Source: Pseudolabrys sp. FHR47 (lineage in GTDB: Bacteria; Pseudomonadota; Alphaproteobacteria; Rhizobiales; Xanthobacteraceae). From it: DNA of 64,000 nucleotides. The translations under genes and the position numbers were made by a program. The notes under the pieces are model-generated. The model was not told where the DNA came from. It ran no database searches and saw only the letters and a list, made by a program, of their open reading frames with translations. Positions 26,074 through 34,899 of this stretch are shown in pieces; the first letter of the stretch is position 1, and every line of letters begins with the position of its first letter. The stretch lies in contig NZ_CP039740.1 of assembly GCF_005153485.1 (NCBI RefSeq), positions 1,491,001 through 1,555,000 of the forward strand, in the 5' to 3' direction.

Positions 26074-28116
26074 ATGCTCAATCGCCTGTCGGTGAATGCA
26101 CTTCTGAAATCCGTTATCGGTTTGATGGCAGGCGTCATCATTATCACGGTTGCCGTTGGCGGCTGGCAGTCGTGGCGAGAATATCAGTCGGCCAACCTCC
26201 TGTCGAAAGTGGCGGCGGTTTCGTCTCACCTATTTAAAGCGCTGCCGGAAATCCGCGTCGAGCGGGCACAAACCGCGCGCTACCTTGGGCTTGAACGGGC
26301 GCCAAGCGACCGAACGCTGTTGACCGATGCGAGAAAAGCCGAAATGCCGGCGCTGAAAGCCGGTCTCGCTGCGCTCCGTGACATCGATGAGCCGGGTATT
26401 GCAGAGCAGGCCGCCACGCTCGCCGCCATGATCAAGAAGTGGGAGGCGCTGCAAGTCGAGACGGACGCCGCATTCGACAAGCCGAAAGCTGAACGGCCAG
26501 TTGGTCTTGGCGACACGTATTACAAGACCGGCGGTGAATTTCTCGATCTTCTCGACCGCATTTCGAGGAACCTGACCGCGCTGATAAAGCTGCGCGATCC
26601 CTATGTCGACCAATTGTTCAACGTCAAACAGTTGGCATGGGCGGCGCGCAATCAGGCTGGCGATAGCAATACGATCATTTCGAATGCTGTCGGCGGGTTG
26701 AAGCCGGCGCCTGACGCGGTGGAGAAGTACCAAGCCAATCTCGCCGCCGGCTACGCATCATGGTCCGCCATCCAGGATATTGTCGATGGCATCGAGCTTC
26801 CGGTCGCCTTTAAACAGGCGCTACAGACCGCAACGAAAGATTTCTTCTCGCCGGACTACGCCAAGCTGCGGCGTGACCAGCTCGATGCGGCGCTATCCGG
26901 TCAGACGCTGAGGGTTCCTGCCAAGGATTGGGTCAAGTTCTCTGTCGACAGGCTCAATCTCATCCTCGGGGTAGCCAACGCCGCGCTGGCGTCCATCGCC
27001 GGGCATGCCGACCAACTTAAACAGCAAATGATCTGGAAGCTGTCGATACAGTTTATCGTGCTTTGTTTCGCTATCGCGTTGACCGGAGGAGTTGTGGTTC
27101 TGCTGGCCCGCCGCGTTACCGAACCGCTGCGCCGTATTCAGACCGGCATGATGAAGGTCGCCGAGGGCGACTTCAATGTCACACTGCCGCGCATGGAGGC
27201 CAAAGACGAAATCGGGCAGATCGTCAATGCAGTTGGTGTGATGATCCAGCAAGTTCGTAGCACGATCTTCCAGATCAAGAACTCGTCGAACGAGGTCACC
27301 AATGCCTCGGCGGAAATCTCGCTGAGTACGGCCGATCTGTCGCAGCGCACCGAAGAGCAGGCGGCAAGCCTGGAGGAAACCTCCGCGTCGATGGAGGAAA
27401 TCGCCAACACAGTCCGCCGCAACGCCGAGAGCGCGCAGGAGGCGACGAAGTCGGCGCAGGCAACACGTCAGGTGGCGGATCGTGGCGGCGAAGTGGCCGG
27501 CCGCGCCGTTCAGGCCATGGCGCGCATCGAGGAATCCTCGCGCAAGATTTCCGACATCATCAGCGTGATCGATGAAATCGCGCGGCAGACCAACCTTCTG
27601 GCTCTGAACGCGGCGGTGGAAGCCGCGCGTGCCGGCGAGGCCGGCCGCGGTTTTGCGGTGGTCGCCTCCGAGGTGCGCAGCCTGGCGCAGCGCTCGTCAC
27701 AGGCGGCGAAGGATATCGCCCAACTCATTACCAACTCGACCGGGCAGGTGAAGGAGGGCGTCCAACTCGTCAATCAGGCGGGTAGTGCGCTCAACGAGAT
27801 CGTCGAGTCGATCCGTCATGTCGCCGACGCGGTGTCCGAGATCGCCAATGCCAGCAGCGAACAGGCGACCGGCATCGAGGAAATCAAGCGTACCCTCGAT
27901 CAGATGGACGAACTCACGCAGCGTAACTCGGCGCTGGTGGAGGAAAACGCCGCCACCGCCCAAACGCTCGAGCAGCAGGCCAGGGCCATGGATGAGCAAC
28001 TTGCTTATTTCCGGACCGAAACCGGGACGTTTGCGACAAACAAAGTTGAAGCGCGCGGTCCTGCCGGCACCAAGCGTCCCGCATCGTGGGCCGCTCCGGC
28101 GAAAAACGCTGCGTAG
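26074..28116 (+). CDS. Methyl-accepting chemotaxis protein (second of three)
   Basis: 680 residues. The start [20 protein letters not shown] is very like that of the third receptor. TM1 is about 10-32, a helical sensor domain follows, TM2 is [19 protein letters not shown] near 320-340, then HAMP and a signalling domain with the conserved [17 protein letters not shown] tip. It senses an unknown periplasmic ligand and signals to CheA. It probably arose with the third gene by tandem duplication. Confidence 0.92.
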
Positions 28117-28230: not shown

Positions 28231-30279
28231 ATGCTCAATCGTATTACCGTCAGCGCACTTTTGAAATCGGCCTTCGGCGTGATGGCGGCGGCCATCATTG
28301 CCGTTCTTGCAACGGGCGCCTGGAACGCTTCGAAGCGACTGATCATCGCTAACGGGATTGTCGCCGATGCCGAAGCGTCGGCTTATCTCTTCACGTCATT
28401 GCACAATCTGCGCATGGACCGAGCGTTCACGTCCAATGACTTGCTCAGCGAAAAGACCGGCGAATTCGGTGCGGTTGTAAAAAAAGTGCGGCCGGCTGGG
28501 CTCGATGCCCTGACGAGTGGCTTGTCGGCTCTGGAGCAAGTCTCGTTCCCGGCGGGCAGTACGACCATCGCTGATCTGCGAGCAGGGCTCGAGCGCCTTC
28601 TGGCCTTCCACAGGCAAGCCAATGCGGCGATCATGCTTCCCAAGGCGCAACGACCCGCCAATCTGGCCAAAGAGGGTTTCGACACGACCACTGCGCTTGT
28701 CGACATGATCGAGAAGGCGTCTTCGCGGCTGGGCGAAATGATGAAGTTCGAAGACTCTCACGTTGACCAATTGCTCCAGTTGAAGACGCTTTCTTGGATG
28801 TTGCGTGTTGCGAGCGGCGATACGGCGATGTACGTCACCACCAGCTTCGTGCGCCAGCCTGCCCCGGATGTGATGCAGGCTTATTCGGAGGCGCTTGGTC
28901 GCGCGAACGCCTCCATGGCCGCAATCGATGAAACGATCAAGCGACTCCCGCTGCCAACGAGCATAATCGAAGCTATCGAAAAGTTCCGGACGGGATACTT
29001 CGGCGACTACAATAAACAACAACAGGTTATGCTCAAGACGCTCATCGCCGGCGAGAAGCCCAGTATGGACCGGGCGAGCTGGGACAAAATGGCGACCGAG
29101 CGCGTCAACGTGTCGGTCGATGTTGCCGAAGGCGCATTGCAGGCCGTCAAGGCCCGGGCCGTGGCAATACGTGGCGAGGCGCAGGTGGGCTTTTATCTGC
29201 AACTCGCCCTTTTGGTGGTCGCGATCGCGATCAGCATCGGCATGATGCTGATCATTACGCGGCGCATCTCCAATCCGTTGATCACGGTGCAGAAAGCGAT
29301 GGTCGAGATCGCTGGCGGCAATTTCAATGCATCGCTGCAGTATACCGGTCGCCAGGACGAAATCGGTCAGATCATCACCGCCGTCAACACTATGGTCGAG
29401 CAGGTACGCGGGATCATCGTTCACATCAAGCAATCGGCCCATGAGGTGACCAGCGCCTCGGGCGAAATCGCCGTGGCGACGACCGATCTGTCGCAACGGA
29501 CCGAAGAGCAAGCGGCCAGCCTGGAGGAAACCTCCGCGTCGATGGAGGAAATTTCCGCCACGGTGCGCAAGAACGCTGATAACGCCCAGCGTGCGCGGCA
29601 GTCGGCGCTTAACACCCAGCAGGTGGCCGACCGCGGCGGCGAGGTTGCGAGCAAGGCGGTGCAGGCCATGGCCCGCATCGAGGAGTCGTCCGGCAAGATC
29701 GCTGACATCATCGGCGTCATCGACGAAATTGCCCGGCAGACCAACTTGCTGGCGCTGAATGCGGCGGTGGAAGCGGCGCGGGCCGGCGAAGCAGGCAGAG
29801 GCTTTGCCGTCGTCGCGACCGAGGTGCGCAGCCTGGCGCAACGTTCGTCGCAGGCCGCCAAGGATATCGCCGAACTCATCACCAACAGCGGCAGCCAGGT
29901 GAAGGACGGCGTGGCACTGGTCAACCAGGCCGGTACGGCGCTTAACAACATCGTGGAGTCGATCCGCGAGGTGGCCGTGTTGGTTTCGGATATTGCCACT
30001 GCCAGCACCGAGCAGGCCCAGGGGTTGGGTGAGGTCGGTAAGGCGCTGGCCCAGATGGACGAGGTGACGCAGCGCAATTCGGCGCTGGTCGAAGAAAACG
30101 CCGCGACGGCGCAGACGCTGGAAAACCAGGCCCGGGCGATGAACGAGCAGGTGGCGTTCTTCCGGATCGATGGGATCGACCAGCCGATTGCGAACGCTGC
30201 TGAGACTCCCGCATCCGTTCGCAAGGCACCGGTCAGGCCGGCCGTCGCCCGACCGTCGGGCCGGGCCTGTGCCGCCTAA
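28231..30279 (+). CDS. Methyl-accepting chemotaxis protein (third of three)
   Basis: 682 residues, same plan as the gene before it: N-terminus [20 protein letters not shown], sensor region to about 325, TM2 [23 protein letters not shown] and a signalling hairpin with [17 protein letters not shown]. The cytoplasmic half is close to the other two while the sensor half has diverged, suggesting a different ligand. GAAAGAGAG lies before the ATG. No che genes are in the window. Confidence 0.92.
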
Positions 30280-30434
30280 GGGCGCGCGCGGAACGCACCC
30301 ATGAACCGGGGCCGGCAAGCGCCGGCCCTCCGCGTTCAAGGGGCCTGGCCGGTCGCGGTAGGGCTCCTGCTGGTAGCTTCCTCGGCGTTGCTATTGCCGC
30401 CGCGCGGGACTGCCATTACCCTCCGTTTTCGCGC

Positions 30435-30463
30435 TTGACCGGGCAAAAAGCCGCCCCTATAAG
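30435..30463 (+). promoter_or_regulatory. Promoter of the ilvB leader
   Basis: TTGACC (30435-30440) and TATAAG (30458-30463) with a 17-bp spacer, a near-consensus sigma-70-type promoter. Transcription would begin near 30470, about 25 nt before the leader peptide start, which fits an attenuator-controlled operon. Confidence 0.7.
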
Positions 30464-30494
30464 GCGCGCAACGAAAGTTCGGACGACGCAAGCA

Positions 30495-30545
30495 ATGCGC
30501 AATATTATTATTCTCGTAGTCGAGGTTCGGACACTGGCCGGGTAG
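30495..30545 (+). CDS. ilv leader peptide (attenuator)
   Basis: A 16-residue open frame, MRNIIILVVEVRTLAG. Three ATT (Ile) codons, one CTC (Leu) and three Val codons occur within the eight codons 4-11. It lies between a good promoter and a terminator hairpin, upstream of ilvB. The composition is that expected of a leader whose translation stalls when Ile, Leu or Val are short. It is too short to be a functional protein otherwise. Confidence 0.85.
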   Translation: MRNIIILVVEVRTLAG

Positions 30546-30597
30546 CTGCCGCTACCCTCGGTGAGTGTCCGGACATGGCCCCTTGCGGGCCTTTTTT
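30528..30597 (+). promoter_or_regulatory. Transcription attenuator of ilvB
   Basis: A pause-type structure forms from CGGACACT (30528-30535) with AGTGTCCG (30564-30571), enclosing GGGTAGC (30540-30546) with GCTACCC (30551-30557). The terminator follows: GGCCC (30577-30581), loop CTTGC, GGGCC (30587-30591) and six T (30592-30597). The pause stem overlaps the leader codons, as in classical amino-acid attenuators. I could not assign a unique antiterminator pairing by eye. Confidence 0.8.
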
Positions 30598-30657
30598 ATT
30601 GGCTGCAACGACAGCTACGGCGAAAGCGACAGGACGAGCGAGAGAAGGAAGCCGATC

Positions 30658-32445
30658 ATGACCAAGCACACGGCGACGAAGGACGAACCCCGGCAGATGA
30701 CCGGCGCCGAAATGGTGATTCAGGCCATGGCCGATCAGGGCGTGAAGCATCTGTTCGGTTATCCGGGCGGCGCGGTGCTTCCGATTTACGACGCGCTGTT
30801 CGCCCAGAAGGAAGTCCGCCACATCCTGGTCCGCCACGAGCAGGGCGCGGTCCATGCCGCCGAAGGCTATGCCCGTTCCACCGGCAAGGTGGGTTGTGTC
30901 CTGGTGACCTCCGGTCCCGGTGCCACCAATGCCGTGACCGGTCTCACCGACGCGCTATGCGATTCAATCCCGCTGGTCTGCATCACCGGCCAGGTGCCGA
31001 CGCATCTCATCGGCAACGACGCCTTCCAGGAGTGCGACACGGTCGGCATCACGCGGCCCTGCACCAAGCACAATTATCTGGTGAAGCGCATCGAGGACCT
31101 GCCGCGCATCCTGCATGAGGCCTTCCACATCGCCGCCAGCGGCCGTCCGGGTCCGGTCGTGGTCGACATCCCGAAGGACATCCAGTTCGCCACCGGCATG
31201 TACTCGCAGCCGACGGAATTCCCGCACACCGGCTATCACCCGAAGCTGAATGCCGATCCGGCGCCGATCCGGGCGGCGATCGAGCTGATGGCGCGCGCCA
31301 GAAAGCCGATCTTCTACACCGGCGGCGGCGTCATCAATTCCGGCCCGCAGGCCAGCAAGCTGCTGCGCGAACTGGTGCAGGCAACCGGCTTCCCGATCAC
31401 CTCGACCTTGATGGGGCTAGGGGCCTATCCGGCGGCCGATCCGCAGTGGCTCGGCATGCTCGGCATGCACGGCACGCTGGAAGCGAACATGGCGATGCAT
31501 GACTGCGACGTCATGGTTTGCGTCGGCGCACGCTTCGACGATCGTATCACCGGCCGCCTCGATGCATTTTCACCGAACTCGAAGAAAATCCACATCGACA
31601 TCGACCCGTCGTCGATCAACAAGAACGTTCATGTCGATATCCCGATCATCGGCGATTGCGCGCATGTCCTTCAGGACATGCTGCATCTGTGGAAGTCCGA
31701 GAAGAAACAGGCCGACAAGAAGGCCGTGGGCGATTGGTGGAAGCAGATCGACAAGTGGCGCGCCCGCAAGTCGCTCGCTTACCGGCCGTCGAATGAGGTG
31801 ATCAAACCGCAATACGCCATCCAGCGGCTGTTCGAATTGACCAAGGACAGGGACACCTACATCACGACCGAAGTCGGTCAGCACCAGATGTGGGCGGCGC
31901 AGTTTTATCACTTCAACGAACCGAACCGCTGGATGACGTCCGGCGGCCTCGGCACGATGGGCTACGGCCTGCCGGCCTCGGTCGGCGTGCAACTCGCGCA
32001 TCCCAAGGCGCTGGTCATCGACATCGCCGGCGAGGCCTCGGTGCAGATGACGATGCAGGAATTGTCGACGGCGGTGCAGTACCGGCTGCCGATCAAGATC
32101 TTCATTCTCAACAACAGCTACATGGGCATGGTCCGCCAGTGGCAGGAATTGCTGCACGGCAGCCGCTACTCGGAGAGCTATTCCGAAGCGCTTCCGGATT
32201 TCGTCAAGCTGGCCGAGGCGATGCACGCCGTCGGCATCCGCTGCGAGAAGCCGGGCGACCTCGATCACGCCATCAAGGAGATGATCGATATCGATCGCCC
32301 GGTGCTGTTCGACTGCGTCGTCGATCAGAAGGAAAACTGCTTCCCGATGATTCCGTCGGGCAAGGCGCACAATGAAATGATCCTCGGTGACTCGGGCGTG
32401 TCTCTCGACGATGCCATCACCGAGGAAGGCAAGATGCTGGTTTAA
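30658..32445 (+). CDS. ilvB: Acetolactate synthase large (catalytic) subunit
   Basis: 595 residues from ATG 30658, with AGAAGGAA about 8 nt upstream. It condenses pyruvate with pyruvate or 2-oxobutyrate, the first common step to Val, Leu and Ile. The TPP-type N-terminal domain (FGYPGGAVLPIYDAL, HEQGAVHAAEGYAR), the central FAD-binding part and the C-terminal TPP domain (NNSYMGMVRQWQ) are present. The Mg-binding motif reads GEA (IAGEAS), with Glu for the usual Asp. It is controlled by the attenuator upstream and followed by the small subunit. Confidence 0.95.
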   Translation: MTKHTATKDEPRQMTGAEMVIQAMADQGVKHLFGYPGGAVLPIYDALFAQKEVRHILVRHEQGAVHAAEGYARSTGKVGCVLVTSGPGATNAVTGLTDALCDSIPLVCITGQVPTHLIGNDAFQECDTVGITRPCTKHNYLVKRIEDLPRILHEAFHIAASGRPGPVVVDIPKDIQFATGMYSQPTEFPHTGYHPKLNADPAPIRAAIELMARARKPIFYTGGGVINSGPQASKLLRELVQATGFPITSTLMGLGAYPAADPQWLGMLGMHGTLEANMAMHDCDVMVCVGARFDDRITGRLDAFSPNSKKIHIDIDPSSINKNVHVDIPIIGDCAHVLQDMLHLWKSEKKQADKKAVGDWWKQIDKWRARKSLAYRPSNEVIKPQYAIQRLFELTKDRDTYITTEVGQHQMWAAQFYHFNEPNRWMTSGGLGTMGYGLPASVGVQLAHPKALVIDIAGEASVQMTMQELSTAVQYRLPIKIFILNNSYMGMVRQWQELLHGSRYSESYSEALPDFVKLAEAMHAVGIRCEKPGDLDHAIKEMIDIDRPVLFDCVVDQKENCFPMIPSGKAHNEMILGDSGVSLDDAITEEGKMLV

Positions 32446-32612: not shown

Positions 32613-33173
32613 GTGAACGCCAACGCCAACGTCCCGTCGAGCACGTCGCACTATCCGACCGCGACCAATGTGCAGAAGCCGGAAACCCACACTCTGTCGG
32701 TGCTGGTCGATAACGAGCCGGGCGTGCTCGCCCGCGTCATCGGCCTGTTCTCCGGCCGCGGCTACAACATCGAATCGCTGACGGTGTCGGAGACCGAGCA
32801 CGCCAAGCACCTATCGCTGATCACCGTCGTCACGACCGGCACGCCGATGGTGATCGAGCAGATCAAGAACCAGCTCGACCGGCTCGTGCCGGTGCACCGG
32901 GTCGTCGACATGACGCTCTCCGGAAAGGCCATCGAGCGCGAACTCGCCATGGTGAAGGTGCGCGGTAAGGGCGACAACCGTGTCGAGGCGCTGCGTCTGG
33001 CCGATGCCTTCCGCGCCCGCGTTATCGACGCCACCACCGAGAGCTTCGTCTTCGAGATCACGGGCAAGAGCGACAAGATCGAGCAGTTCGTGGCGCTGAT
33101 GCTGCCGCTCGGCCTTGTCGAAGTTTCTCGCACGGGTATCGCGGCGATCGCGCGCGGTCCGGACCCGATGTAA
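32613..33173 (+). CDS. ilvN: Acetolactate synthase small (regulatory) subunit
   Basis: 186 residues from GTG 32613. The ACT domain starts at THTLSVLVDNEPGVLARVIG (about 26-45) and continues with FSGRGYNIESLTVSETE; the C-terminal AHAS-small-subunit domain follows (VKVRGKGDNRVEALRLADAF). It binds valine or other end products and stimulates and controls IlvB. Residues 1-25 are an unusual Asn/Ser/Thr-rich extension. Could also be called ilvH. Confidence 0.94.
   Translation: MNANANVPSSTSHYPTATNVQKPETHTLSVLVDNEPGVLARVIGLFSGRGYNIESLTVSETEHAKHLSLITVVTTGTPMVIEQIKNQLDRLVPVHRVVDMTLSGKAIERELAMVKVRGKGDNRVEALRLADAFRARVIDATTESFVFEITGKSDKIEQFVALMLPLGLVEVSRTGIAAIARGPDPM

Positions 33174-34899
<1,726 letters not shown>

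Follow-up and report, generated by a model that had tools for sequence, protein, structure and literature searches.

A putative ribosome-mediated attenuator in front of ilvB in Pseudolabrys sp. FHR47

The leader preceding ilvB in Pseudolabrys sp. FHR47 is best read as a ribosome-mediated transcription attenuator of ilvB that would sense the charged tRNAs for Ile, Leu and Val, a reading to which a probability of about 0.88 was assigned from the sequence comparisons described below. The product of ilvB is the first enzyme shared by the Ile, Leu and Val pathways. The downstream gene ilvN is probably under the same attenuator. The regulatory parts of the leader stand in the canonical order of trp-type attenuation. 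The type of attenuator has long been known, and the present example is an ordinary, well-conserved ilvB attenuator in a further genus. All coordinates refer to the window, i.e. the whole stretch of 64,000 nucleotides that was analysed. The features are as follows.

30435..30463, + strand: sigma-70-like promoter TTGACC-N17-TATAAG, from the sequence (TTGACC 30435-30440, TATAAG 30458-30463)
30470..30494, + strand: short 5' UTR, with the transcription start placed from the -10 box
30495..30545, + strand: leader-peptide ORF MRNIIILVVEVRTLAG (ATG 30495-30497, 16 sense codons, TAG 30543-30545)
30504..30521, + strand: regulatory run Ile-Ile-Ile-Leu-Val-Val (ATT ATT ATT CTC GTA GTC), from the sequence and kept within the genus
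30525..30574, + strand: pause-type hairpin 1:2 (50 nt), from the MFE fold and compensatory changes among relatives
30577..30597, + strand: intrinsic terminator, stem 30577-30591 (GGCCC/GGGCC) and six T 30592-30597, conserved in the genus
30658..32445, + strand: ilvB, acetolactate synthase large subunit (NCBIfam NF006581 and TIGR00118 above cut-off)
32613..33173, + strand: ilvN/ilvH, acetolactate synthase small subunit (NCBIfam NF008864 and TIGR00119 above cut-off; start codon provisional)
33880..34899, + strand: ilvC, ketol-acid reductoisomerase (NCBIfam NF004017 and TIGR00465 above cut-off)

The promoter, a 16-codon frame with clustered Ile, Leu and Val codons, a pause hairpin overlapping the last codons and a terminator with six T before ilvB had all been named in an earlier sequence-only reading of this DNA, and each was found again at the coordinates listed. 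The promoter scores below the threshold of a consensus promoter scanner; a TTGAC hexamer and a TA-hexamer occupy the equivalent position at 29/29 congeneric loci, with a spacing of 17 nt in 28 of these. Beyond the ATT ATT ATT CTC GTA GTC run, the frame contains GTT and CTG further on, and in the MFE fold the hairpin spans codons 11-16 together with the stop codon. A terminator scan of 1 kb on both strands returned five sites, including the one at 30577-30597, where 1.0 was expected. The segment 30470-30600 (131 nt) folds with an MFE of -57.4 kcal/mol; shuffles averaged -39.7 (z = -5.01), and 0/200 equalled the native value.

Being highly structured and ending in a terminator before ilvB, the leader might also be a riboswitch or protein-binding leader, with the terminator under the control of a ligand (an amino acid or ppGpp) and the ORF spurious, and passages of PMC8632094 mention weak candidates proposed on ilv genes elsewhere, e.g. 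on ilvB in Leptospira. This is a very remote prospect for FHR47: no Rfam riboswitch matched in the window, nor in 30300-30800 at E up to 10, and the conserved part of the leader includes a codon run for exactly the products of the pathway.

Amino-acid attenuation of ilv, as proposed earlier, is supported because ilvB, ilvN and ilvC lie downstream and because close relatives have kept the codons, the hairpin and the terminator. Sequence and comparison show the promoter, the leader with its codon run, the pause hairpin and the terminator, as well as their place before ilvB and their conservation, and from them we infer the transcription start, translation, termination and stalling; antiterminator pairing is the weakest of the inferred steps. 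A LysE/RhtB-type transporter ORF (33174-33773) is present between ilvN and ilvC, with six NCBIfam matches that are all below the curated cut-offs. Upstream of the attenuator are two similar tandem ORFs, 26074-28116 (680 amino acids) and 28231-30279 (682 amino acids), for which no link to the attenuator was seen; they presumably encode proteins resembling methyl-accepting chemotaxis proteins.

In the proposed mechanism, RNA polymerase would initiate near 30470 and copy the leader, and a ribosome would start at the AUG at 30495. With ample amino acids, the ribosome would reach the stop codon at 30543-30545 and cover the adjoining downstream segment, and RNA polymerase would end transcription at the terminator at 30577-30597. 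When Leu or Val (perhaps also Ile) is scarce, the ribosome would halt within the codons at 30504-30527, covering the 5' arm of the hairpin at 30525-30574 and freeing the segment past the stop codon. The freed segment would then delay or replace the terminator, so that ilvB would be transcribed.

Conservation was assessed on 110 ilvB loci, comprising 30 from a search of 36 genomes of the genus and the best 80 of a larger set from GTDB species. Three loci (L018, L031 and L068) lacked upstream sequence and were dropped, leaving 107. The arrangement was scored as an ORF of 9-30 codons with at least four Ile, Leu or Val codons in eight (at least five in the stricter version) and a terminator within 80 nt. 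It was found before ilvB at 83/107 loci at the threshold of four and at 69/107 at five; the corresponding counts within the genus were 28/29 and 27/29, and 0/535 dinucleotide shuffles contained it, so that chance is a poor explanation for the arrangement. The distance from the stop codon to the terminator stem was 25-45 nt at 82 of the 83 loci and 55 nt at the remaining one. The 24 loci without the arrangement at these thresholds include L029 from the genus, the three Parvibaculum loci L060, L080 and L092, as well as L035, L041 and L042, at which a matching ORF is present and the terminator pattern is absent.

The 29 genus leaders align well, and the Ile/Leu/Val run and the terminator are conserved within the genus; a synonymous ATT to ATC change occurs in the codon run of L004 and L006. 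Conservation of the Ile, Leu and Val codons and of the hairpins among close relatives, which the earlier reading had put forward as a check, was therefore borne out by the alignment. The earlier description of the peptide MRNIIILVVEVRTLAG as new-looking was too strong, since it is a local variant of a leader that many Hyphomicrobiales possess and since this type of leader was cited already in 2005.

The start of the leader was examined at two positions. An in-frame ACG (30471-30473) lies near the expected +1, and in 29/29 congeners a triplet A[CTG]G stands in frame, exactly 27 nt upstream of the codon that aligns with Arg2 and 5-8 nt past the -10 box. The triplet is ATG in nine (L015, L017, L019, L020, L023, L024 and L028-L030), ACG in 19 and AGG in one. 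For the window's clade the ACG at 30471 was rejected as the leader start: in L003, a near relative, a stop codon interrupts the frame between the ACG and the ATG, two codons upstream of the latter. This stop supports 30495 as the start of the peptide. Outside the genus, an ATG 6-8 nt past the -10 box was present in 31/65 loci with a promoter call, mainly from Rhizobium, Sinorhizobium, Mesorhizobium and similar genera. Nearly all of these 31 ATGs are at the leader frame, as in leaderless mRNA, the exception being L052, which is without such a leader. The comparison suggests that the genus shifted from leaderless to leadered initiation and that the leaderless start was possibly lost in the window's clade.

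Codon choice was compared with that in 35 window ORFs picked by length and GC3 (16,078 codons). ATT accounts for 58 of the 67 Ile codons in the 29 leaders (16.5% of Ile codons in window genes) and GTA for 44 of the 74 Val codons (3.3% of Val codons in window genes); p-values for this bias are overstated because the leaders are related. Passages of PMC1183508 treat synonymous choice in leaders as a source of sensitivity and 'rare' alone as too simple a rule.

The consensus pause hairpin and terminator of the 29 genus leaders contain 94.0% standard pairs, compared with 88.5% in shuffles and at most 53.1% for slid partners. Changes on both sides were observed in ten of the 22 pairs and in 38 cells (shuffle means 4.4 and 11.9), values reached by 0/500 shuffles; this control is lenient, as the rows are related and kinship alone can give such values. 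One consensus pair switches between A-U and G-C, in a ratio of 15 to 14, and three of the five terminator pairs are invariant and hence uninformative on covariation. A covariance model built from the 29 congeners matched 39/60 relatives, with a single hit in each: 34/36 genomes of the genus and 5/24 outside it. The source sequences of the model make up 29 of the 34 genus matches, the independent five being G001, G009, G019, G024 and G034. In the FHR47 genome, the sole match at E<=0.01 was the ilvB leader (window 30465-30601).

Folding of 30470-30600, suggested earlier as a check for terminator and antiterminator forms, gave the terminator and pause-hairpin forms, and the antiterminator form did not rise above shuffles. 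The ribosome was assumed to cover 13 nt, counted from the first base of the A-site codon. In the window leader, the alternative form lies 5.3 kcal/mol above the terminator form, and 94/100 shuffles were equal or better. The nascent 5' arm of the terminator was paired upstream at 0.33 for a stall at Val9 and 0.54 at Val11, compared with 0.72 and 0.68 in shuffles. Over all 29 congeners, the mean alternative-minus-terminator value was 1.5 (0.7 in shuffles, i.e. no better) and nascent-arm pairing was 0.64 (0.73 in shuffles); native leader-terminator combinations were not clearly better than between-species mixes within the genus. A dedicated genus-wide antiterminator is thus unsupported by nascent-arm pairing, species mixing, equilibrium probability and alternative-form energies. 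The earlier wording of a 'complete' attenuator was too strong because the antiterminator in FHR47 is no better than in shuffles; its presence there would be expected from the attenuator family. Under the assumed footprint, a stall at the Ile codons of the window leader leaves the pause hairpin intact, and for this reason a response to Ile is unexplained by the simple model.

The leaders of E. coli K-12 trp, ilv, thr and his were used as controls. All four gave equilibrium terminator probabilities of 0.95-1.0, and their alternative forms lay 2.2 to 23.9 kcal/mol above the terminator form, with 5-75/100 shuffles equalling them. The equilibrium and alternative-energy tests are blunt, because known E. 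coli attenuators also stay on the terminator side. In the nascent-arm test, ilv and thr were matched by 0/100 shuffles at some stall sites, trp by 20-26/100 and his by 10-26/100.

A candidate antiterminator was found in nine of the 29 congeners (L007-L013, L016 and L017), in which 12-13 pairs can form between the terminator and the segment just past the stop codon. With the ribosome placed on the tenth codon from the conserved Arg, these nine favour the alternative form over the terminator, the gain being 0.7 to 6.0 kcal/mol, a difference equalled by 6-39/100 shuffles. This tenth codon encodes Val in six of the nine and Trp, Ala or Arg in L009, L011 and L017. When only Ile, Leu or Val codons were used as stall sites, the terminator probability at the Val codon nearest to this place was <0.1 in L007, L008, L010, L012, L013, L016 and L017 and not in L009 or L011. 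The equilibrium comparison sets aside L029 and L030, whose terminator arms were out of register. The alternative is also favoured in L023 and L024, by 0.5 and 0.2 kcal/mol, respectively, via other pairings. A candidate antiterminator that is present in some congeners and absent in others would provide a handle on the terminator-exclusion step.

For the leaders of the window's clade (L001-L006), the balance lies with the terminator form, by 2.2 to 5.3 kcal/mol; 65 to 94/100 shuffles are as good, and the terminator probability is >=0.96 at every stall tested. Set against the nine congeners that favour the alternative, these values would fit a decay of attenuation in L001-L006, in which the pause hairpin was strengthened, the antiterminator was lost and the terminator now sets a constant low level of ilvB. 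Decay is rather unlikely, however: the clade has kept both the codon run and the terminator, the change in L004 and L006 being a synonymous one, and the working E. coli attenuators also have a positive alternative-minus-terminator energy.

The leader was also compared with the Rfam family RF02502 (Atu_C8, 'Rhizobiales sRNA'). The window matched it with 26.9 bits (E 0.003), below the gathering cut-off of 50, and hence is not a filed member; the family aligns end to end (1-122) with window 30497-30608, several non-standard pairs being marked. At the cut-off, RF02502 was found at 14 of 20 loci tested, each time on the ilvB leader, and it missed five loci of the FHR47 genus and the Bosea locus L035. 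Coincidence of the family with the ilvB leader and terminator was noted at L081, L082 and L093, among others. At E<=0.001 it matched 76/150 genomes of the order, 22 of them over the cut-off, and 0/14 control genomes; no match was obtained in the FHR47 genome in this search. Where the position was checked, in 12 positive genomes, 13/13 matches lay just upstream of an ilvB-like gene. Genome G058 has two ilvB-like genes (contigs C1559 and C1049), each preceded by a separate RF02502-type leader that scores above the cut-off, and contig C2 of G162 has two RF02502 matches, one of them under the cut-off.

Atu_C8 and the FHR47 leader share the pause-hairpin and terminator helices, in register and at the same genomic place; they differ in that the family model begins inside the leaderless-type ATG, whereas the FHR47 leader uses a later AUG. 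Because 14/20 loci place the family on the ilvB leader, Atu_C8 looks like, and probably is, a terminated ilv attenuator RNA. A literature search on the name Atu_C8 found no relevant paper, and the main texts of PMC3738593, PMC3927594 and PMC4201532 are free of words beginning with ilvB, ilvI or acetolactate; Atu_C8 may have been recognized earlier as an ilv leader.

The full-length sub-threshold match to RF02502, an Rfam family of type sRNA gene, could alternatively mean that the FHR47 locus is an independent small RNA of the Atu_C8 kind with its main job in trans, the leader ORF being incidental. In passages of PMC10117765 and PMC7298713 the Sinorhizobium trp attenuator RNA is reported as a dual-function sRNA. 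An independent small RNA is nevertheless highly unlikely here, given a position directly before ilvB and a conserved Ile/Leu/Val run, which are the needs of a cis attenuator, and given the 13 position-checked family matches, all of them upstream of ilvB-like genes. The roles of cis attenuator and trans sRNA could coexist. A broader proposal, unlikely as a whole, is that Atu_C8 would be the terminated ilvB leader of Hyphomicrobiales, that the released RNA (and peptide) would also act in trans as the Sinorhizobium trp attenuator RNA does, and that the leader of the genus would have shifted from leaderless to leadered. If the link between Atu_C8 and the ilvB leader is right, an amino-acid attenuator carries the label of a free-standing sRNA wherever the Atu_C8 family is used.

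Among known systems, the attenuators of E. coli ilvXGMEDA, thr, trp and his share leader codons, hairpins and a terminator with the FHR47 leader; those of ilv and thr differ in beating all or nearly all shuffles in the nascent-arm test at some stalls, which the FHR47 leader does not. Among the matches listed in a search of the open literature, no earlier description of an ilvB attenuator was found for the genus, and the present work extends a known regulator, with a covariation record, to it. The sequence-only reading had stated that alphaproteobacterial versions are known, and passages of PMC1273637 and PMC4117421 agree. The former (2005) refers to 'an ilvB leader peptide' that was already known in alphaproteobacteria, for which it cites Vitreschak et al. 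(2004; FEMS Microbiol Lett 234:357), and the elements listed in PMC2573895 include an 'ilvIH cis regulatory' one from S. meliloti, again credited to Vitreschak et al. According to these passages, the FHR47 leader has in common with that system a leader peptide before ilvB (ilvIH in Sinorhizobium) and a proposed attenuation; the FHR47 peptide is its own variant, and its genus is unnamed in the passages of PMC1273637 and PMC2573895. Attenuation of Caulobacter crescentus ilvBN is described in a passage of PMC4117421 citing Tarleton et al. (1994). The Caulobacter system was studied experimentally, whereas the FHR47 leader is known from its sequence and the likeness is drawn from the description only; by that description, the two share tandem Ile and Val codons, a Rho-independent terminator and the class of bacteria.
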